From Spirochaetaceae bacterium (GTDB lineage: Bacteria; Spirochaetota; Spirochaetia; DSM-27196; Alkalispirochaetaceae): DNA of 34,380 bases. Every line of letters begins with the position of its first letter. Within the stretch, counting starts at the first letter, position 1. The position numbers were made by a program, and so were the translations under genes. The notes beneath the pieces were generated by a model that worked only from the letters and a program-made list of their open reading frames with translations, searched no databases and had not been told where the DNA came from. Shown here one piece after another: positions 13,259-27,136 of the stretch. The DNA lies in the NCBI GenBank assembly GCA_007695175.1, contig REEH01000148.1, positions 1-34,380 on the forward strand. The letters run 5' to 3'.

Positions 13259-13851
13259 TAGGGGCTGAGGTGGAGTTCCGCCCGGAGCGTTGATGGAGGA
13301 CCCACAGAGGGCAGAAGCAGAAGATCCGAATCCGCCCCGGGAAGGGTGAAGAGCTGATCCTTGACGGTGGCTATCAGGAGTTCCTCGTTATAGTTGGTGG
13401 GCGTCTCCCCCAGTGTTCCGGCGTGGACGATGGCACCGCTGAAAAGGCAGTTTCCCATGCGGTACACGTAGGAACTCCGGGAGTGTGGCAGAAAGGGAAT
13501 TGCCTCAAGGGTAATGCCCTCCAGCACCAGCGGCTCCCGTGCCTCAGGATATATCTGGCGGCACGTCCGCCCGAAGAGCTCCTCCTCTCCGGCAATCACC
13601 TGATAAGCAAAAATTCGTCCCAATGTATGCAGGGGATGACGCATATACTCTTCCGGGTGCGTCACGACGATCCACCGGACTTCGATCTGAAGCCGCAGAA
13701 GCAGCGCGTAGAAATCATTGTCCACATGAACGGGATCCACCAGGATCGCCCCTGTTCCTTCCCGGGGCGCCACAATGTAACAGGTGGTGCGGCTCACGGG
13801 GCTGAAATAGGGAACAACGCGCAACGATGGATTCTGGTCGCTCAAAAACAT
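13231..13851 (-). CDS. Metallo-beta-lactamase-fold protein with degenerate metal site
   Basis: The 206 residues follow the glyoxalase II/MBL-hydrolase plan: SRTTCYIV...AILVDP (about 20-40), a strand ending VVTH, GITLEAIPFLPHSRSSYVYRMGNCLFSGA (112-140) in place of GITL..TPGHTPGSV...LFTGD, and LLLPSVGPPSTLRAELHLSPYY near the end. The HxHxDH motif reads THPEEYM (64-70): only H65 remains. H123 aligns with the PGH histidine, but the GD aspartate is A140 and the GHG histidine is V183. A two-metal hydrolase is therefore unlikely; a binding or structural pseudoenzyme is more plausible. The ATG lies 1-2 nt after GAAGAGG; the TTG two codons later has better spacing and could be the real start. It overlaps the upstream pentapeptide gene by 10 nt. 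Confidence 0.78.
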   Translation of the reverse strand: MFLSDQNPSLRVVPYFSPVSRTTCYIVAPREGTGAILVDPVHVDNDFYALLLRLQIEVRWIVVTHPEEYMRHPLHTLGRIFAYQVIAGEEELFGRTCRQIYPEAREPLVLEGITLEAIPFLPHSRSSYVYRMGNCLFSGAIVHAGTLGETPTNYNEELLIATVKDQLFTLPGADSDLLLLPSVGPPSTLRAELHLSPYYREFEAAE

Positions 13852-14336
13852 GCCTCTTCGTAGTTTGAATGACGGAAAGTCACCTCATTTCGCTGGGAAA
13901 ACTGAAAGAGAGCGTCCTTCACGTCGCAGTTTACGAAATTGACTGTGCTCAACCGGGCGTTTACGAATCGGCTTCCTCTCAGGGATGCGTCGCTGAAATC
14001 GGTATCCCGGGCGTAGATCCCGTTGAAATTGCAGAGATCGGCGGTAACGCCGGTGAAGGAGCAGTTTATCAGGCGACATCCCGCAAAAACGGACTCGAAT
14101 ATGTGGGCCTGATCAAAATGACAGTTTTCAAAGAGCGCGAAATCGGCGAAGAAACACTCAAGCGTACTGTTGCGGAAGTCACAGTCCTTCAGCATCGAGC
14201 CGGTGAAGCGGACCCAGCGCAGATGGCGGCTGGTGAGATCCATTCCGGAGAATCCCTTGTTTCGTCCGTCCACGTACTCTATCAGGGGTGCCGGGAGGCT
14301 CTCCAGGTAGTACTGATCCCGTGATTGTCCAAACAC
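13842..14336 (-). CDS. Pentapeptide-repeat protein
   Basis: 164 residues, of which about 28-155 show the A(D/N)LXX-like periodicity of a right-handed quadrilateral beta helix, with Phe or Leu at every fifth position: FRNSTLECFFADFALFENCHF, then CSFTGVTADLCNFNG and FSDASLRGSRFVNARLSTVNF. No signal peptide or membrane segment is seen, so it is probably cytosolic. Members of this fold include DNA-mimic gyrase protectors (Qnr, MfpA), but most have unknown roles and nothing here is specific. GTG is used as start; it has no Shine-Dalgarno and lies 8 nt after a TACAAT box. It is the first gene of a two-gene unit with the degenerate MBL protein, which suggests a joint role. Confidence 0.85.
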   Translation of the reverse strand: MFGQSRDQYYLESLPAPLIEYVDGRNKGFSGMDLTSRHLRWVRFTGSMLKDCDFRNSTLECFFADFALFENCHFDQAHIFESVFAGCRLINCSFTGVTADLCNFNGIYARDTDFSDASLRGSRFVNARLSTVNFVNCDVKDALFQFSQRNEVTFRHSNYEEACF

Positions 14337-14701: not shown

Positions 14702-16432
14702 ATGGTTCTTTTTCTCGATTCCGGTGTGGGCGGTCTGGTGTACCTGGAGGAGTTCAGGCGCCGCAACCGGGGCGTCCCCTGTGAGTACATCGCCGATACG
14801 GCGTGGTTTCCCTACGGAGAACGCCCCCCCGCGGAGGTGCGCCGACGCGTTCTCTTCCTGGTGGAGCACTGGATGCAGAAATCCCGGCTGGAAGAATCAC
14901 CGCTCCCCGGGGCGGTAGTGATCGCATGCAACACAGCCTCCGTCGTTGCCCTGGAGGCGCTCCGGCTCCGTTTTCCCGTACCTTTTGTCGGAGTCGTGCC
15001 GGCGGTCAAACCGGGAGCAGAATCGACGTCCACCGGTCACATAGCACTTCTGGCAACAGCGCGCACCGCTGATGACCCCTACACGGACGAACTGGTTCAA
15101 CGTTTCGCACGGTACTGCCGGGTAACCCGGATCGGCCTCCCGCGGCTCGTAGAGGCGACGGAACGGGGCTTCTGTGGAACGGCAGAGGATGTGGCGCGCG
15201 TCTTCCGGGAGGACGCGCTCGCAAGAATGGATTCCTCCGTCGATACGGTCGTGCTGGCCTGTACCCATTTCGTACGGCACCGCGATCTCTTCCGGAAAAT
15301 TCTGGGACCAGGTGTGCGCATCACCGATTCCCTGGAAGGCGTGGTGCGCCGTGTGGAATCCATCCTTCGGGAAGGAGGGACCGACGCTTCCGGCCGGGAC
15401 CGGGGGCGGTTCCTCCATACCGGAACACTTCCCTCCGAGATGGAGTGTCTTGAAGGACGGTACAGGGTCACTCCCTTTTCCCTGCCGGAGGAGATGAGGG
15501 CCACCGTTCTGTGGGGGGCAAACAATATTTACAGTCTCCGCACAAGCTCAGGAGAGATTCTTGAACACCTTCGGATAAAGGGAAAGGTCCTGCCCGGAAC
15601 GGAGGAGGGCGAGTACAACCCTCTTGCACCGGGAGACGAGGTTACTCTGGTAGGGAGTGGCTCGGACCGTCGCATTCTGGAGCGCCGCCCTCGACGGAAC
15701 CTGGTGCGCCGGTGGAACAGGAAACGGCGTGCTCTGCAGGCGATCGCGGCCAACGTGGATACAATCCTGGTCGTTTCTTCCGCTACGGATCCCCCATACC
15801 GCCCCGGATTCGTGGATCGCGTTCTGGTGATGGCGGAACTGGAGGGAATACCGGCGGCGATCGTCCTCAACAAGGCCGACTATTCCGTACCGCCCGAGGT
15901 GGAACGGCACCTGACCATCCTGGAGGAACTGGGTTATCCGCTCTATCGCACAATTGCCGGCGGCGACGGGGAAAGCCTTCCGGAGATACCCCTGGAGTTG
16001 CGCCGTTACACCGCCGGCACCGTTACGGTCCTGGTGGGACGGTCCGGCGTGGGTAAATCCTCGCTCATCAACCACCTCGTTCCTGAAGCGGACCTCACCA
16101 CGGGAGCCACCTCGCGCAAGTACAGTCGCGGGCGCCATACCACCACCCTGGCACGGCAGGTCGTTGCCAGTGATCCCAAGCTCGACGGGGCGATCTACAT
16201 CGATACGCCGGGGGTTCGCGAGTTCGATCTGGTGGGGTACAGCTGCACCGAGATGGCTGCCGGTTTCCGGGAATTCCTGCCGCTGATTCCTCACTGCCGC
16301 ATGCCCGGGTGCACGCACCTGCACGAGCCGGACTGTGCGGTAAGGAACGGGGTGGCGAGCGGATCGGTCGCGCCGGAACGGTACCTCTCTTACCGGATTC
16401 TGGCGGAAAGTCTTCTCAAGGAGTTTTCTTGA
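14702..16432 (+). CDS. murI-rsgA: Fusion of glutamate racemase and ribosome-assembly GTPase RsgA
   Basis: One uninterrupted 576-residue frame with two full-length enzymes. Residues 1 to about 262 are glutamate racemase, making D-glutamate for peptidoglycan: FLDSGVGGL with D6, IADTAWFPYGE, catalytic C76 in VIACNTAS and C187 in VVLACTHF. Residues about 266-576 are RsgA/YjeQ, a 30S-maturation GTPase: OB fold (266-330), circularly permuted G domain with NKAD (390-393) before the P-loop GRSGVGKS (446-453), G2 region GRHTTT, G3 DTPG (501-504), and the C-terminal zinc knuckle C532-x4-C537-x-H539-x5-C545. All key residues are intact in both. M265 sits directly after GGAGGAG with essentially no spacing, so separate internal initiation is possible but poorly placed. 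mutS2 overlaps its stop. Confidence 0.93.
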   Translation: MVLFLDSGVGGLVYLEEFRRRNRGVPCEYIADTAWFPYGERPPAEVRRRVLFLVEHWMQKSRLEESPLPGAVVIACNTASVVALEALRLRFPVPFVGVVPAVKPGAESTSTGHIALLATARTADDPYTDELVQRFARYCRVTRIGLPRLVEATERGFCGTAEDVARVFREDALARMDSSVDTVVLACTHFVRHRDLFRKILGPGVRITDSLEGVVRRVESILREGGTDASGRDRGRFLHTGTLPSEMECLEGRYRVTPFSLPEEMRATVLWGANNIYSLRTSSGEILEHLRIKGKVLPGTEEGEYNPLAPGDEVTLVGSGSDRRILERRPRRNLVRRWNRKRRALQAIAANVDTILVVSSATDPPYRPGFVDRVLVMAELEGIPAAIVLNKADYSVPPEVERHLTILEELGYPLYRTIAGGDGESLPEIPLELRRYTAGTVTVLVGRSGVGKSSLINHLVPEADLTTGATSRKYSRGRHTTTLARQVVASDPKLDGAIYIDTPGVREFDLVGYSCTEMAAGFREFLPLIPHCRMPGCTHLHEPDCAVRNGVASGSVAPERYLSYRILAESLLKEFS

Positions 16433-18816
16433 ATACGCTGCAGGCGCTGGAGTTTGATCGCATCCGGGCCGATCTGGCGGAGTTCTGCGTCTCCCGGGAG
16501 GGGCGGGAGGATATGCTCTCCCTGGAACCCCGGACCGACCCGGAGGAAATCGCCCGCACGAACGCGGAAGTGGATGCAGTTCTCCGCGCCCTGGAGGCGG
16601 ATCTTGCACCCCCGGGCGGGTTCGTGCCTCCACTGGAAACGATTTTTTCCGCGCTCCGCCATCGCGGAGAGGTTCTGGATCTTGAGGCGCTGGGAGCGCT
16701 CCGGGCGTTTCTGGAAGGGGCGGGTGAGTTCTACCGTTTCTTCCGGTCCGGAGAGGAAAGGGAGCTCCTCCCGGGCACGCGTTCCACCATGCTGAAACCG
16801 CCGCGGGAGCCGACCGCTTCGCTGCGTCGTCTGATTACCGGCGAGGGCCGCCTCAACGAGGACGCCGTTCCGCAGATCGTCACGCTCCGGCGCCGCATCA
16901 CCGAGGTACACCAGGAACTGCAGCACACATCGGAGCAGATTATCCGTGCCGACCGCGATCTGTACCGGGAAGACCGTGCCACCGTTCGTGACGGCCGGAC
17001 GGTACTCCCCCTGGTGGCGGACTTCAAGGGACGTCTTGACGGCATCGTACACGAAGCATCGGGCAGCGGGGAAACGCTTTTCGTGGAACCGCGGGAGCTG
17101 GTGGACCTCAATAATCGCCTCGCCCGCACCCGCAACGAGATCCTCCGGGAAATACGGCAGGTTCTGCAGGATCTGACCGAATCGGCCCGTCTGCACCGGG
17201 AAGAACTGGAAGAACTCCGGCGGGAACTCACCCTTGCGGATGGCCTCCTCGCGCGAGCGCGGTACGGCCGCGACCGGCAGGGCCGTATCGTACCCTCCGG
17301 TGAGAGAATCGTCCTCCTGAACGCCCGCCACCCCCTCCTGGGACGCGCCTGTGTTCCTCTGGATATCGCCTTTGAGCCGGGCATTCGCCTGATGGTGCTG
17401 AGCGGTCCCAACACGGGAGGCAAGACGGTTCTCCTCAAGACGCTGGGACTCCTGGCGGTGATGAATCAATGCAGCGTACCTCTCCCGGTGGCGGAGGGGA
17501 GTTCTCTACCCTGCTTCCGCTGGATCGGGGTCGATATCGGGGATGAGCAATCAATCGACGAGGCTCTCTCCACCTTCTCGGCCCACCTGCGCACGCTGGG
17601 GGAGATCACGCGGCGGGCCGACGCGGAGAGTCTCGTTCTCCTGGACGAGCTGGGGACGGGAACGGACCCGGAGGAGGGCGCCGCTCTCTCCCTGGCGATC
17701 ATCGATCACCTGATGGATCGGGGCGCCGCCGTTCTGGTGACGACGCATCAGACCGTTCTCAAGCACTACGGCTACACCCGTGACGCGGCCTCCAATGCGG
17801 CCATGGCTTTCGACGAGGAGGAACACCGCCCTACCTATCGTGTCATACCGGGCAAACCGGGCGTAAGCCACGCTCTGGAGACAGCTCTTGAGCAGGGGCT
17901 CGCGCCGGAGATAGTGGCCCGCGCCCGCGCTTACCATGGGGACAATCGGAGCAGCGTGGCGACGATCATCACCCGTCTTCTGGAGGAGGAGGAGCTTCTG
18001 CAGGAACGGATGCGCGCGGTGCAGGCGCGGGAAGCTTCACTCCTGGAAGAACGGGATCGCCTCAGGGAGACAGGACGGCGTCTGGAGGAACGGGAACGGG
18101 AGTTGAAAGAGGAGGGCCTGCGGGAGCTCAAACAGACACTGCGGCAGGCCCGCAGCCGGCTGGAACAGGAGATCCGCACCCTGCGGGAGCGGGGAGTCGC
18201 GCTGGACCGGGAGGAAATGCAGCTGGCCCGGGAACCTCTCGATGAGCTGGAGCAGATCCGGCAAACGATCGGCCGGGACGTTGCTCGAAGCGAACACTCC
18301 GCCCCGCCGGCGGACCTCGCGCCGGGGAGGGAGGTGAGGCATCGGCTCACCGGCCAGTCCGGGAGGGTCCGTTCCCTGCGCCGCGACCGCGTGGAAGTGC
18401 AGTTCGGCGACCTCCGGATGAGCGTCGCCCCGAAGGACCTCCTCGCCGGTCCATCGGAGGGAGACAAAGCGCAGTCCCGGCCGTCCCGTACGGAACCGAA
18501 GAGCTTCACGTACACGGGAGACGCCTCCGGTACCGGCACCTCCGGCGGACCGGCGCCATCGATGGAAATCGACCTCCGGGGACTCCGGCTCGAGCAGGCG
18601 CTGGAGGAGGTGGAACGGCAGGTGGACGCGGCGATCGTGCACAGCCTCTTCACCTTCAGCGTGATTCACGGTACCGGCACGGGCGTACTCCAGAAGGGGA
18701 TACAGGATTACCTGAGAACGAGGCGTGAAGTACAGGGTTTTCACTTTGCCCGCCCCGAGGAGGGGGGATACGGAAAAACGGTGGTTGAGCTCGCAAAAGA
18801 CTCCGGGGTAGGATAG
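16429..18816 (+). CDS. mutS2: MutS2 (MutS-like ATPase with Smr domain)
   Basis: 795 residues. The N-terminal part is the MutS2 core/clamp. The ABC-type ATPase has Walker A GPNTGGKT (326-333) and Walker B LVLLDELGTGTD (around 402-413). A long Glu/Arg-rich coiled coil follows (about 510-610), then a C-terminal Smr nuclease domain from about 712 with IDLRG and IHGTGTG. The MutS mismatch-recognition domain is absent, as in all MutS2. The family is linked to suppression of recombination and, in Bacillus, to rescue of collided ribosomes. The start is TTG at 16429: AAGGAG lies 6 nt upstream, the stop of the preceding gene overlaps it (TTGA), and the family starts with LNTLQALEFDRI-like sequence. Earlier in-frame starts would only re-read the rsgA end. 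Confidence 0.94.
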   Translation: MNTLQALEFDRIRADLAEFCVSREGREDMLSLEPRTDPEEIARTNAEVDAVLRALEADLAPPGGFVPPLETIFSALRHRGEVLDLEALGALRAFLEGAGEFYRFFRSGEERELLPGTRSTMLKPPREPTASLRRLITGEGRLNEDAVPQIVTLRRRITEVHQELQHTSEQIIRADRDLYREDRATVRDGRTVLPLVADFKGRLDGIVHEASGSGETLFVEPRELVDLNNRLARTRNEILREIRQVLQDLTESARLHREELEELRRELTLADGLLARARYGRDRQGRIVPSGERIVLLNARHPLLGRACVPLDIAFEPGIRLMVLSGPNTGGKTVLLKTLGLLAVMNQCSVPLPVAEGSSLPCFRWIGVDIGDEQSIDEALSTFSAHLRTLGEITRRADAESLVLLDELGTGTDPEEGAALSLAIIDHLMDRGAAVLVTTHQTVLKHYGYTRDAASNAAMAFDEEEHRPTYRVIPGKPGVSHALETALEQGLAPEIVARARAYHGDNRSSVATIITRLLEEEELLQERMRAVQAREASLLEERDRLRETGRRLEERERELKEEGLRELKQTLRQARSRLEQEIRTLRERGVALDREEMQLAREPLDELEQIRQTIGRDVARSEHSAPPADLAPGREVRHRLTGQSGRVRSLRRDRVEVQFGDLRMSVAPKDLLAGPSEGDKAQSRPSRTEPKSFTYTGDASGTGTSGGPAPSMEIDLRGLRLEQALEEVERQVDAAIVHSLFTFSVIHGTGTGVLQKGIQDYLRTRREVQGFHFARPEEGGYGKTVVELAKDSGVG

Positions 18817-20573: not shown

Positions 20574-21146
20574 GTGCAACAGTACTACTATACGGTAGCG
20601 TCGCTCCCGGCGATCCGTCTTGAGGAGCCCCCTTTTCTCACATCCGAGGAGTTTCTCGAGATTTGCCGCACCGAGGCGAGTCCCGAGGATCTTGAGGTGA
20701 TACGGTCCGCTGTGATTCTACCGGACGCCCCGGACCACTCCTCGGATCAGCCTTCGCCTCCGCCCGGAGTCCTGGGAATCTGGAACAGAATGGTCCGGGA
20801 GTTTCAGGCTCATGCGGCGCCGATGCGCGCCCAGAACCTCGGATGGGAGGGAGACCGTCTGCCTCGCACCGAAGGGCTGGATGCGTCGATGGCGGAGCGG
20901 ACCCGCGCGATCCTCAGCGAGGATACGCCCCTGAAGGCGGAAAACGCCCTTATGCGCTGGCTCTGGCAGCTGGCGGAAGACCTGGAGACGGGACATCACT
21001 TCGACAGGGAAAAACTGGTTGTGTATCACCTGAAACTTCAACTCGCAACGCGCCGGGCACGACTTGCGGACCACGAGTCGGGCAGTGAAGAGTTCAGCCG
21101 TCAGTACGAGGTGGTCGCACAGTCACTCATGGAGATAGGCACATGA
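20574..21146 (+). CDS. DUF2764-type V-ATPase-associated protein
   Basis: 190 residues, cytosolic, mostly helical and acidic. The start QQYYYTVASLPAIRLEEPPFLTSEEFLEIC is the characteristic beginning of DUF2764 proteins, which occur between the E and A subunit genes in spirochaete, chlamydial and Bacteroidetes V-ATPase clusters. No subunit C (d) or F gene is present in this cluster, so this protein is the obvious candidate to fill the central-stalk connection to the rotor; that is inference. GTG start 13 nt after atpE; the stop overlaps the atpA start by 4 nt (ATGA), so it is translationally coupled to the catalytic subunit. Confidence 0.85.
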   Translation: MQQYYYTVASLPAIRLEEPPFLTSEEFLEICRTEASPEDLEVIRSAVILPDAPDHSSDQPSPPPGVLGIWNRMVREFQAHAAPMRAQNLGWEGDRLPRTEGLDASMAERTRAILSEDTPLKAENALMRWLWQLAEDLETGHHFDREKLVVYHLKLQLATRRARLADHESGSEEFSRQYEVVAQSLMEIGT

Positions 21147-22915
21147 CAAAAGGAAATGTAGTCGCAATCAACGGTAACATGGTCAGCGTGAACGTTGATG
21201 GTGACGTATCGCTCAACGAGGTGGGTTACATTCTCGTGGAGGATAAACGCCTCAAGGCGGAAGTGATCCGCATCAGGGGAAGCCAGGCGGAGCTGCAGGT
21301 CTTCGAGATAACCCGCGGTATCGCGGTGGGTGATCCCGTAGAGTTCACGAAAGAGCTTCTGGCCGTCGAGCTGGGACCGGGGCTTCTCACTACGATCGTG
21401 GATGGACTCCAGAATCCGCTCCCGGAACTGGCGGAGAAATCGGGCTTCTTTCTGGAGCGGGGAGTGTACCTGCAGGCCCTGCCCCGGGAAAAAAAATGGC
21501 ATTTTACCCCCACCGTTTCCGTGGGAGATTCCGTTTCCCGGGGAGACCAGCTCGGTCACGTTCCGGAAGGGATTTTTGAGCACTGGATCATGGTGCCCTT
21601 CGGGCTTTTCGACACCTATACGGTGGAGACGATCGCTTCCGAGGGGGACTACACCCTGGAGGAAACGATAGCCACCGTGAAAGACAGCGCCGGCGCCACC
21701 CACGAGCTCTCCATGGTCTTTGAATGGCCCGTAAAGCGTGCCATTGATGCCTTTCCGGAGCGGCTGCGCCCGGAGGAACCCATGGTTACCAAGGTGCGCC
21801 TCATTGATACCTTTCTTCCGGTAGCGCGGGGCGGGACCTACTGCATTCCCGGTCCCTTCGGAGCGGGTAAGACGGTGCTTCAGCAGATAACAAGCCGCAA
21901 CGCCGAGGTGGATATCGTAATCATCGCCGCCTGCGGCGAACGGGCAGGAGAGGTGGTGGAGACGCTGCGGGAATTCCCGGAGCTCACCGACCCGCGTACG
22001 GGCAAGTCCCTCATGGAACGGACCGTCATAATCTGCAACACCAGCTCCATGCCCGTGGCCGCGCGGGAAGCGTCGGTGTATACCGCCGTGACCATCGCCG
22101 AGTACTACCGTCAGATGGGCCTGGACGTGCTCCTTCTGGCGGATTCCACGAGCCGCTGGGCTCAGGCGATGAGGGAGATGTCCGGACGCCTGGAGGAGAT
22201 CCCCGGGGAGGAAGCGTTCCCGGCGTACCTGGAATCGGTCATAGCCGCCTTCTACGAACGGGCGGGACTGGTTCGGCTCAACAACGGAAAGACCGGCTCC
22301 GTCACGATCGGCGGTACCGTAAGCCCCGCGGGCGGCAACTTCGAGGAGCCGGTAACGCAGGCGACCCTCAAGGTAGTGGGGGCCTTTCACGGACTCTCCC
22401 GGGCGCGGTCGGACGCGCGCAAGTATCCCGCCATCGATCCGCTGGACAGCTGGAGCAAGTATGCCGGAACGGTTGACCATGAGATGACCGAATACGCCCG
22501 GAGCATACTCTTCCGGGGCGACGAGGTGGGACAGATGATGAAAGTCGTCGGTGAGGAGGGAACCGCCCTGGATGATTTCATTCTGTACCTGAAGAGTGAC
22601 TTCCTGGACGCGGTCTATCTGCAGCAGAACGCCTTTGATCCTGTCGACGCCTCGGTCGGGACCGAGCGGCAGCGCCACATATTCGATCTGGTCTTCACGG
22701 TCCTGGGCAGTAAAATCAAGACGGACAGCAAGGAGCAGGCGCGAAACTTCTTCTACGAATTCCGGCAGAAGTTCATCGATTACAACAGCGCCGAGTGGGA
22801 ATCGGAAGCGTTTGAGAAACTGGAGAAGGAGATGAGGGAGATGCTCTCCCGGGTATCGTCTGAACTCGAACCTCGCGCTCAGGAAGCGTACCGCAACCGG
22901 GGGGATTATGCGTAA
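21143..22915 (+). CDS. atpA: V-type ATPase catalytic subunit A
   Basis: Nucleotide-hydrolysing subunit of the A3B3 head, 590 residues, the V/A-type length with the extra non-homologous region that F-type beta subunits lack. The P-loop is GPFGAGKT at 237-244 (Ala where many V-ATPases have Cys or Ser). Other landmarks are [14 protein letters not shown] (Walker-adjacent arm), the catalytic-glutamate region [38 protein letters not shown] (Walker B and following) and [19 protein letters not shown]. It overlaps the preceding gene by 4 nt and atpB by 8 nt. Confidence 0.97.
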
Positions 22916-24230
22916 AGTATACAGTCGGATAGAAACTATCGCGGGCAACGTGATTTCCGTAAAGGCGGAGGGTGTGCGGTACGGCGAACTGGCCACGGTG
23001 AACACCCGGTACGGCACCTCCCTCGCGGAGGTAATCCGCATGCGCGATGATGAGGTGAGTCTCCAGGTCTACGCGGGCGGTCGCGGAATCTCCACCGGGG
23101 ACGAGGTTCGCTTCATGGGACACCCCATGCAGGTTTCCTTTTCCGACAATCTCCTGGGCCGGGTTTTCAACGGATCCGGTCGGCCCCGGGACAATGGTCC
23201 GGAGCTTACGGAGGGATTGATCGAGATAGGTGGTCCCTCGGTCAATCCGGCCAAGCGCATCATTCCCCGCAATATGATCCGCACGGGAATACCCATGATC
23301 GATCTCTTCAACACTCTCGTGGAGAGCCAGAAACTTCCCATCTTCAGCGTCTCCGGAGAACCCTACAACGAGCTTCTGGCGCGCATCGCCATGCAAGCGG
23401 AGGTGGATATCATCATCCTCGGCGGCATCGGCCTGAAGTACGATGATTATCTCTTCTTCAAGGATTCCCTGGAGGAGGGGGGCGCCCTTTCGCGGACCAT
23501 ATTCTTCGTACACACCGCCAGTGATCCCGTGGTGGAAGCGCTTCTCGTGCCGGATATCAGTCTTGCCGTAGCGGAGAAGTTCGCTCTCAAGGGCAAGCGC
23601 GTGCTCGTTCTGCTTACGGACATGACCAACTTCGCCGACGCCATGAAGGAAATCGCGATCACCCAGGAGCAGGTCCCTTCCAACCGGGGGTACCCGGGTG
23701 ACCTCTACAGCCAGCTTGCCTCACGCTACGAGAAGGCTGTGGACTTTGAAGGCGCCGGATCGATTACGATTCTAGGAGTGACCACGATGCCCGGTGACGA
23801 CGTGACGCACCCCGTTCCGGACAACACCGGGTACATCACCGAGGGACAGTACTATCTCCGAAACGGGCGAATAGAACCATTCGGTTCGCTCTCGAGACTC
23901 AAGCAGCTCGTGAATGATTCCACCCGGGATGACCATCGCGCCCTCATGGACGGGATGATCAAGCTCTACGCCAACTACAAGGAGAGTCAGGAGAAGAAAT
24001 CCATGGGGTTCCGCATGTCGGAATGGGATGACAAGCTTCTGAAGTACGGCGAGATCTTTGAACGCACTCTCATGGATCTTTCCGTCAACATTCCCCTGGA
24101 AGAAGCCCTGGATCGAGGGTGGTCGATCCTGGCGGACTGCTTCAACTCCCAGGAGACGGGCCTCAAATCTGAACTGATCAAGCAGTTCTGGCCCAAAAAG
24201 GATGAAGAGAGCGGGGAGGCCACAGCCTGA
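22908..24230 (+). CDS. atpB: V-type ATPase subunit B
   Basis: Non-catalytic partner of subunit A in the hexameric head; 440 residues. It lacks a functional P-loop, as expected: the equivalent region reads [16 protein letters not shown]. The family signature [17 protein letters not shown] and [27 protein letters not shown] are present, and the C-terminal helical domain continues to [20 protein letters not shown]. The ATG lies 8 nt inside atpA after a GGGGGGA stretch. The stop shares one base with the atpD ATG (TGATG), implying tight coupling. Confidence 0.97.
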
Positions 24231-24823
24231 TGGTCAAGCTGACCAAGAATGAGCTGAAAAAACAGAAAGACTCTCTCAAACGGTTCGAGCGGTACCTGCC
24301 GACGCTGCAACTCAAGAAGCAGCAGCTGCAGATGGTTATTCGCCAGGTGGAACAGCAGTTCGATGCGATCAAGCGGGAGCGCGATCAGCTGCAGCGGGAT
24401 ACCAAAACGTGGATCGGTGTGTTCAACGATGGGATCGACCTGAGTCCCTACGCGGAAACGGAACAGATCCGGACTTCAGTCGGCAACATCGCCGGTATAG
24501 ACATCCCCGTTTTTGAGGAGTTGCGCTTCACCGACACGCGCTGGGATATCATAACGCTGCCCCCCTGGGTGGATCGGGGAGTTCAGGCACTCCGGGAGAT
24601 GCTGGAGTATGAAGCGCAGCTGAAGATCCTCAGGGAGCAGTTGCGCCTCCTGGGGAACGAGTTGAGAACAACCACGCAGCGGGTGAATCTCTTTGAGAAA
24701 GTCAAAATTCCGGAAACCCGGGAGAATATCCGCATGATACAGATTTACCTGGGAGACCAGCAAACCGCCGCCGTGGTCCGGGGAAAGATCGCCAAACGCA
24801 ACCTTGTAAAGGCGCCACGATGA
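24230..24823 (+). CDS. atpD: V-type ATPase subunit D
   Basis: Central rotor shaft inside the A3B3 head, functionally like F-type gamma. 197 residues; the N-terminal helix (VKLTKNELKKQKDSLKRFERYLPTLQLKKQQL, about 2-60) and the C-terminal helix (about 125-190) form the antiparallel coiled coil, with a short central domain between them. The T-K-N-E-L start is characteristic of the family. In most V-ATPases it binds subunit F, for which no gene is present here. ATG overlaps the atpB stop; the end overlaps atpI by 4 nt. Confidence 0.93.
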   Translation: MVKLTKNELKKQKDSLKRFERYLPTLQLKKQQLQMVIRQVEQQFDAIKRERDQLQRDTKTWIGVFNDGIDLSPYAETEQIRTSVGNIAGIDIPVFEELRFTDTRWDIITLPPWVDRGVQALREMLEYEAQLKILREQLRLLGNELRTTTQRVNLFEKVKIPETRENIRMIQIYLGDQQTAAVVRGKIAKRNLVKAPR

Positions 24824-26715
24824 TCGCAAAAATGAAAAAGATTTCGGTCATTACCCTGAAATCGCAACGGGACAGGACTCTCGAGAACCTGCGCGCTCTG
24901 GGCGTGGTGCACGTCTTCACCGATCGGATCGAGGTTGAATCGGGCGAAAAGCTGAGGGAACAGAAGAACGACCTGGAACGATGCCTTTCTCTTCTTCCCC
25001 CGCCGTCGGAGGCCCGGGCGGCGGATCAATCCCCGGTTACCGGTGACGGCGCCGTCGATGCCGCCCTGGCCCTGGCGGAGGAGCTGCTTGCAAAAGCGGA
25101 TCGGCGTTCACAGCTGGAGGATGACCGGGATCGGTTACAGCGCGAACTGGAACGAATAGCTCCCTGGGGCGAAATGGACCCGGACCTGGTGCGTGCTCTC
25201 CACGAAAAGGGCGTTGATGTGCGCCTCCTGGAGGCGCCGCGTGATCAGGAAGAGGAGATCCTCGCACGCGTACCGCGCTCGATAGTGCTGCGGAGAACCA
25301 AGGCCCTTGTGCGCATTCTCGCTGTCGCTGTAGGCAAGGAGGAAGCGCCCGCCGAGGAGTTGCCCCAGGTAGCGCTGCCGGAGATTTCCACCGCCGATCT
25401 TCGCGCCGGAATCACTCAGCGATCGGAGGAGATCGCGGGGATCACCGCTGAACTCGAGGATCACCGGGGGGATATTCCCCTGATACGGGAAGCGCTGGCG
25501 CAGCTTGACCAGGACCTGGAGTTTACCCGGGTCGCCTCCGGGATGGAGCGGGATCGGCTGCTGCAATGGGTAACCGGCTTCGTTCCTCATGACGAGGTGG
25601 AGCGGGTCCAGGCCGCCGCCCGTGAGGAGGGGTGGGGCGTGGTTGTCCGCGATCCCGATCCGGACGAACAGGTACCGACCCAGCTGCGCAATCCCGCCCC
25701 GATCAGGATCATCCGGCCTGTTTTCGATTTACTCGGTACGGTGCCCGGTTACCGGGAGCTGGACATCTCCTTTTTCTTTCTCATATTTTTTACCGTTTTC
25801 TTTGCCATGATCATCGGAGACGGTGGATACGGTCTGGTCCTGCTGGGAGGAACCCTCTTTGCCGCTCTCCGGGGGCGGGCGGCGGGGAAGGCTCCGGGTA
25901 ATGGCCTCATCCTGATGATCGTCCTCAGCTCCGCCACGGTGATCTGGGGTGCCATAACGGGCAACTGGTTCGGGTATGCCCCCTTCAACCAGCTCCCATT
26001 TCTGCGCTCCCTCGTGATACCTCAAATCGCGATCGACAACGAGATGAGTACCGAGCTGATACAGTACATGTGCTTCATTATCGGGACGGTGCACCTCTCC
26101 ATCGCGCACATATGGAAGTTCCTGCGCGGTATGCGGGAGAGGCCCCGCATCAGAGCTCTGGAGCAGCTGGGGTGGCTGTCGATGGTGTTGGGCCTTTATT
26201 ATCTCGTCCTGCAGCTCGTCATCGATGCGGACAAGTATCCCATGCCGGACTTCGCCGTTCCCATGATCGCCGGCGGCCTGGCGGGCGTCATCCTTTTCAG
26301 TGCCCAGGAGGAGGGACGGAACTTCTTTATCGGGATTGCCATGGGTTTTGCCGGTATCATCACAACGATCCTGGACAGCATCAGTGCCTTTTCAGACATC
26401 ATCTCCTACATCCGTCTTTTTGCAGTGGGCCTTGCCACCCTGGCCATTGCGGAGGCCTTCAACAGCATGGCCGGTGGAGTGGCGGAGGGGCTTGGCGGCG
26501 CCGGGGGCGCAATCGCGGCGGTATTGATACTCTTTCTGGGACACACACTCAACCTCGCCATGGGGGCTCTTTCCGTGGTGGTGCACGGGGTGCGACTGAA
26601 TATGCTCGAGTTTTCCGGGCATCTTGGAATGGAATGGACCGGGGTGGAATACGCCCCGTTTAAATCACGGACACAAACAACCAATCAAGGAGAAGTAGCG
26701 CATGAATATCGGTGA
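24820..26715 (+). CDS. atpI: V-type ATPase membrane subunit I (a-subunit)
   Basis: Stator subunit carrying the ion half-channels; 631 residues. The N-terminal half (about 1-310) is a cytosolic hairpin of coiled coils that binds the peripheral stalks. The C-terminal half has about seven or eight membrane helices beginning near ISFFFLIFFTVFFAMIIGDGGYG. The essential arginine that releases the ion from the rotor is R532 in ISYIRLFAVGLATLAIAEAFN. LGHTLNLAMGALSVVVHGVRLNMLEFSGHLGMEW is the usual C-terminal helix pair. The ATG overlaps atpD by 4 nt; the last 14 nt overlap atpK. Confidence 0.95.
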   Translation: MIAKMKKISVITLKSQRDRTLENLRALGVVHVFTDRIEVESGEKLREQKNDLERCLSLLPPPSEARAADQSPVTGDGAVDAALALAEELLAKADRRSQLEDDRDRLQRELERIAPWGEMDPDLVRALHEKGVDVRLLEAPRDQEEEILARVPRSIVLRRTKALVRILAVAVGKEEAPAEELPQVALPEISTADLRAGITQRSEEIAGITAELEDHRGDIPLIREALAQLDQDLEFTRVASGMERDRLLQWVTGFVPHDEVERVQAAAREEGWGVVVRDPDPDEQVPTQLRNPAPIRIIRPVFDLLGTVPGYRELDISFFFLIFFTVFFAMIIGDGGYGLVLLGGTLFAALRGRAAGKAPGNGLILMIVLSSATVIWGAITGNWFGYAPFNQLPFLRSLVIPQIAIDNEMSTELIQYMCFIIGTVHLSIAHIWKFLRGMRERPRIRALEQLGWLSMVLGLYYLVLQLVIDADKYPMPDFAVPMIAGGLAGVILFSAQEEGRNFFIGIAMGFAGIITTILDSISAFSDIISYIRLFAVGLATLAIAEAFNSMAGGVAEGLGGAGGAIAAVLILFLGHTLNLAMGALSVVVHGVRLNMLEFSGHLGMEWTGVEYAPFKSRTQTTNQGEVAHEYR

Positions 26716-27136
26716 AATCGGAGTCGGATCGGCTCTGGCATTTGCGGCTATGGGTTCGGCTCTCGGAGCCGGCACCGCGGGTATGGCTGCCGTGGGAGCG
26801 TGGAAGAAAGCGTTCATCCAGAACAAGCCCGCCCCGTTCCTCCTGATAGCTTTCGTAGGAGCCCCTCTTACCCAGACGATCTACGGCCTCATCCTGATGA
26901 ACGCGCTCATGGCGGCTGCTTCCGCCGGTGTTGACGCGGGTCTTCTGATTGGTGCAGGTATACCCGGCGGTATCGCCATGGGCTTTTCCGCGTGGTTCCA
27001 GGGCAAGGCCGGTGCGGTCGCTTCGGATGCTCTGGCGGAGACGGGGAAAGGTTTCGGAAACTATCTTCTTGTCCTCGGACTGGTGGAAACGGTCGCCCTT
27101 TTCGTGATGGTCTTTCTCCTGGGTCTCGTTGGCTGA
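26702..27136 (+). CDS. atpK: V-type ATPase rotor-ring subunit K
   Basis: Sixteen-kDa-type proteolipid of the rotor ring; 144 residues with four membrane helices made of two related halves (GSALAFAAMGSALGAGTAGMAAVGAW and AGLLIGAGIPGGIAMGFSAWFQG). The ion-binding carboxylate is E129 in GLVETVALF (helix 4). T57 and Q58 (PLTQTIYG, helix 2) and Q100 (FQGK, helix 3) correspond to Na+ ligands of Enterococcus hirae NtpK (T64, Q65, Q110, E139), with the same 29-residue spacing from Q to E. This suggests Na+ coupling. AAGGAG precedes the ATG, which lies 14 nt inside atpI. A hairpin terminator follows. Confidence 0.95.
   Translation: MNIGEIGVGSALAFAAMGSALGAGTAGMAAVGAWKKAFIQNKPAPFLLIAFVGAPLTQTIYGLILMNALMAAASAGVDAGLLIGAGIPGGIAMGFSAWFQGKAGAVASDALAETGKGFGNYLLVLGLVETVALFVMVFLLGLVG

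Follow-up and report, generated by a model that had tools for sequence, protein, structure and literature searches.

A single open reading frame (ORF) in the 34,380-nt stretch of Spirochaetaceae contig REEH01000148.1 analysed here, hereafter the window, encodes the glutamate racemase MurI followed directly by the ribosome-assembly GTPase RsgA. The best explanation, to which we give a probability of roughly 0.7 from the sequence comparisons, is the in-frame fusion of a murI-rsgA gene pair that had long overlapped, yielding what would be two tethered, independently working enzymes. The fusion is probably real, with two neighbouring genes merged into one protein, and the genomic comparisons point to a sporadic, repeated merger of the overlapping pair rather than a conserved architecture.

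One frame encodes complete MurI and RsgA

The frame runs from the ATG at 14702 to the TGA ending at 16432 and comprises 576 codons with zero internal stops, the junction included. Frame, profile scores and signature residues together bear out the sequence-only reading of this DNA, which had described one 576-codon frame holding a complete MurI and a complete RsgA. The features are as follows.

14702..16432, plus strand: fused murI-rsgA ORF, 576 aa, both NCBIfam equivalogs above cut-off
14702..15475, plus strand: MurI (glutamate racemase) domain, residues 1-258, TIGR00067 159.9 bits
15476..15493, plus strand: predicted linker of ~6 residues (259-264), AlphaFold2 strand 255-258, loop, strand 265-273
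15494..15497, plus strand: ATGA, the former 4-nt stop/start overlap site, GTGA/ATGA in congeners
15494..16429, plus strand: RsgA domain (OB fold, permuted G domain, zinc knuckle), residues 265-576, TIGR00157 167.7 bits
16429..18816, plus strand: mutS2, third gene of the string, MutS_V and Smr domains, TTG start

The MurI half matched TIGR00067 over residues 2-242 (cut-off 146.65 bits) and PF01177 at 58.6 bits (cut-off 31), and its closest glutamate racemase in the PDB by sequence is 2jfn (E=3.1e-39, covering the MurI half). It contains DSGVGG at 6-11 (D6-S7), C76 within ACNTAS, and C187 and H189 within ACTHF (C187-T188-H189). The half thus shares with known glutamate racemases (TIGR00067; PDB 2jfn and others) the full-length match and the catalytic Asp/Cys/Cys/His signature residues, but its C-terminus continues directly into another protein rather than ending.

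The RsgA half matched TIGR00157 over residues 310-568 (cut-off 100 bits) and PF03193 at 146.3 bits (cut-off 30), with 6h4d as the closest RsgA in the PDB by sequence (E=3.5e-40, covering the RsgA half). Its permuted G domain places NKAD (390-393) ahead of GRSGVGKSS (446-454), followed by RGRHTTT (476-482) and DTPG (501-504), and the zinc knuckle comprises C532-C537-H539-C545. In comparison with RsgA/YjeQ/CpgA proteins (TIGR00157, PF03193; PDB 6h4d, 1u0l), the OB fold, the NKxD motif before the P-loop and the C-C-H-C knuckle are the same, whereas the fused RsgA lacks a free N-terminus, ~264 residues of MurI and linker preceding its OB fold, and the genome that carries it also holds a second, unlinked RsgA.

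An AlphaFold2 model of the fused protein, built on 19 alignment rows, reached a mean pLDDT of 89.4 and a pTM of 0.69, the latter fitting two bodies with loose predicted mutual placement. The model contained a complete MurI whose last strand spans 255-258 and OB strands beginning at 265 (the first at 265-273), which gives a predicted linker of ~6 residues. The sequence-only reading was therefore right that the linker is only a few residues long, but it had set it at 262-266, while AlphaFold2 places it at ~259-264.

The overlapping gene pair of spirochaetes

Every congener sampled (G001-G006) has murI directly followed by rsgA in another frame, the two genes sharing 4 nt that read GTGA or ATGA. 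Most of the Spirochaetia examined retain the murI-rsgA linkage; among 51 unfused junctions, 27 overlap by 4 nt and 10 by 1 nt (37/51 together). Termination-reinitiation has been demonstrated at 4- and 1-nt overlap spacing, and short overlaps are the commonest prokaryote gene spacing and are over-represented among genes that encode complex subunits (PMC10666635).

Aligned with the G003 sequence GTGACTGCCACC, the window site reads ATGAGGGCCACC. At the position of the relatives' GTGA the window has ATGA, which MurI enters in the frame of RsgA; the TGA thus falls outside the reading frame, and ATG265 lies within it. Compared with the unfused murI-rsgA(-mutS2) string of Spirochaetia, gene order, orientation and the position of the start/stop overlap are the same, whereas in the window the murI stop has fallen out of frame and the two genes are one.

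A second, independent fusion

A search for proteins with both domains across spirochaetes, as the sequence-only reading had suggested, used two partly overlapping samples of 393 Spirochaetota and 395 Spirochaetia genomes and found at least two matches that span both domains without a stop, one in the window and one in G043; this count is a lower bound, as a query splitting into two hits would hide a fusion. The G043 fusion (P0002, 584 aa) comes from a Spirochaetales metagenome-assembled genome of another family, on a contig titled curated scaffold (CG_2015-01t), and apart from its fused ORF no MurI or RsgA was found there above the curated cut-offs. Five further pairs are nearly fused, in the same frame with one stop kept: G217 (L035), G449 (L078), G501 (L079), G535 (L080) and G480 (C77). 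The long RsgA frames of G015, G051, G362 and G383 were rejected as fusions because the adjoining MurI lies in a different frame, and that of G156 because the stretch fetched contained no MurI match.

In an RsgA tree of 56 rows, made by a quick method with SH-aLRT support only, the window fusion nested with the unfused G002 and G005 (99) and the G043 fusion with the unfused G045 (99). Because each nests with different unfused relatives, the tree indicates that the two fusions are independent events and that the merger happened at least twice.

Proposed origin of the fusion and its alternatives

We propose that a small indel in the last murI codons brought MurI into RsgA's frame, whereupon the ribosome would pass the old overlapping TGA and make one ~64 kDa protein, predicted to fold as two tethered enzymes, each presumably working independently; initiation at ATG265 may still supply some free RsgA. 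The fusion would mainly swap translational coupling for a fixed 1:1 ratio of enzymes already co-translated, and catalytic cross-talk is unnecessary to explain it. Stop-codon read-through was rejected, there being no in-frame stop, and programmed frameshifting is not needed. Weighing against this account, ATG265 is still available as a start, the candidate indel falls in ~24 nt of poorly conserved tail where a single wrong base could fake a fusion, and sequence alone could miss a regulatory role of a sporadic fusion.

The possibility of such an error, a murI tail read with 1 nt too many or 2 nt too few and so joining genes that truly overlap out of frame, gains from the 256-contig state of the assembly, the unfused state of every sampled congener, the preserved ATGA and the short homopolymers of the tail (TTTT, CCC). 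The indel would have to lie in the ~24 nt that separate ATG265 from the last conserved MurI residues (GRYRV, codons 252-256). However, for each real gene of the window, proteins of G001, G002, G003 and G005 align in a single frame across the 34 kb, and because this synteny with four congeners shows no frameshift-broken gene, indel errors appear to be uncommon in the contig; by our own estimate, a chance error in these 24 nt has a likelihood of ~1e-3 or less, to be set against a fusion frequency of ~1 in 100 or more pairs sampled. Codon preference stays with frame 0 across the junction and gives no hint of a shift, its signal being weak at codons 228-242 and 272-286, and the contig that bears the independent G043 fusion is titled curated scaffold. 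Since indel errors are uncommon in the contig and codon preference keeps the frame, we regard an artefact as unlikely.

Alternatively, the one frame could give mainly two products, with RsgA made mostly from the internal start ATG265 and the full-length chain supplying MurI. ATG265 lies exactly at the position of the relatives' rsgA start, with GGAGG (15487-15491) just upstream, but the GGAGG-ATG spacing is only 2 nt, compared with 6 nt in a congener (L009), termination-reinitiation is lost without the stop, and the G043 junction offers only a TTG in place of a suitable ATG, making this scheme very improbable.

Probable roles of the fused domains

The fused MurI would make D-glutamate for peptidoglycan. 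No second TIGR00067 match was found in the genome, and the fused MurI is probably essential because it is the only glutamate racemase found; the racemase activity of this genome would thus probably rest on the fusion. Two candidates were rejected as glutamate racemases, P0004, which resembles cysteate/aspartate racemases below the NCBIfam cut-off, and P0005, which is PRK07475 by NCBIfam.

The fused RsgA would be a 30S checkpoint GTPase. A second RsgA (P0003, contig C27:1730-2467; L002, L106) scored 162.2 bits against TIGR00157 and is an unlinked paralogue, and the RsgA function may be shared between it and the fusion. The expectation that the genome has no separate murI or rsgA thus held for murI and failed for rsgA. 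Unlinked RsgA copies like P0003 were found in many relatives and were not detected in G043.

In E. coli, the RsgA OB fold touches the decoding-centre helices h18 and h44, and residues 1-20 are important for binding the 30S subunit tightly (PMC9032327). A steric effect of the fused MurI on 30S binding is possible because MurI occupies the end of RsgA that contacts h18/h44 in E. coli. The fusion being the only RsgA found in G043 suggests that the RsgA domain tolerates MurI at its N-terminus, with the qualification that a TTG at G043 codon 279 could still act as a start.

Neighbouring genes

The rsgA stop and the mutS2 TTG start share 4 nt (TTGA) at 16429. The same murI-rsgA-mutS2 order occurs in Borrelia burgdorferi, as BB0100, BB0099 and BB0098. 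In other bacteria MutS2 targets collided ribosomes, which makes two of the three genes of the string (14702-18816) ribosome-related. A pentapeptide-repeat protein is encoded near murI (13842-14336, minus strand), and the G043 fusion has a comparable pentapeptide-type ORF as its neighbour (L010:3631-4218). Further along the window, 21143-27133 holds an ordinary V/A-type ATPase cluster (A, B and D subunits) whose proteolipid is 94-95% identical in three congeners.

Possible functional coupling and meaning

The fusion might also be a regulated bifunctional enzyme, in which the racemase responds to 30S binding or to RsgA's GTP state, or RsgA responds to wall precursors, so that precursor supply and ribosome maturation would be linked. 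In its favour, G043 yielded no RsgA or MurI besides the fusion. Stop-free fusions are rare, however (2 cases in the samples), the domains are predicted by AlphaFold2 as separate units, the window's genome has a second RsgA, short overlaps are so common anyway (PMC10666635) and are shared by mutS2, and no literature link was found, which together leave such regulation improbable. None of the present results supports the tie of D-glutamate supply to ribosome maturation or GTP level that the sequence-only reading had inferred. We consider similarly tenuous the broader proposal that MurI and RsgA are physical or functional partners throughout Spirochaetia, their expression locked by the stop/start overlap, with the two fusions exposing a tie between D-glutamate and 30S maturation. 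The long-kept overlap across Spirochaetia leaves some room for a shared-dosage or complex rationale.

Part of the case for coupling had come from a link of Bacillus subtilis CpgA to peptidoglycan, a premise weaker than the sequence-only reading claimed, given that CpgA also detoxifies 4-phosphoerythronate, a metabolite proofreading separable from ribosome assembly, and that the relation of its wall phenotypes to its ribosome role has been called unresolved (PMC6449344). The open-access literature searched, subscription literature and protein databases being outside the search, yielded no paper that deals with RsgA and also with MurI or glutamate racemase, in line with the sequence-only reading, which knew of no description of the fusion; the murI-rsgA(-mutS2) linkage in spirochaetes is apparently undescribed as well. 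The fusion is a new variant built from known proteins, and its function is speculative.

The case illustrates how a single small indel can turn two translationally coupled genes into a two-domain protein, and this has happened at least twice. It points to a long-kept link in spirochaetes between an enzyme of peptidoglycan-precursor synthesis and a GTPase of ribosome assembly, and with mutS2, and the fused protein offers a direct means to test the functional meaning of the murI-rsgA linkage.
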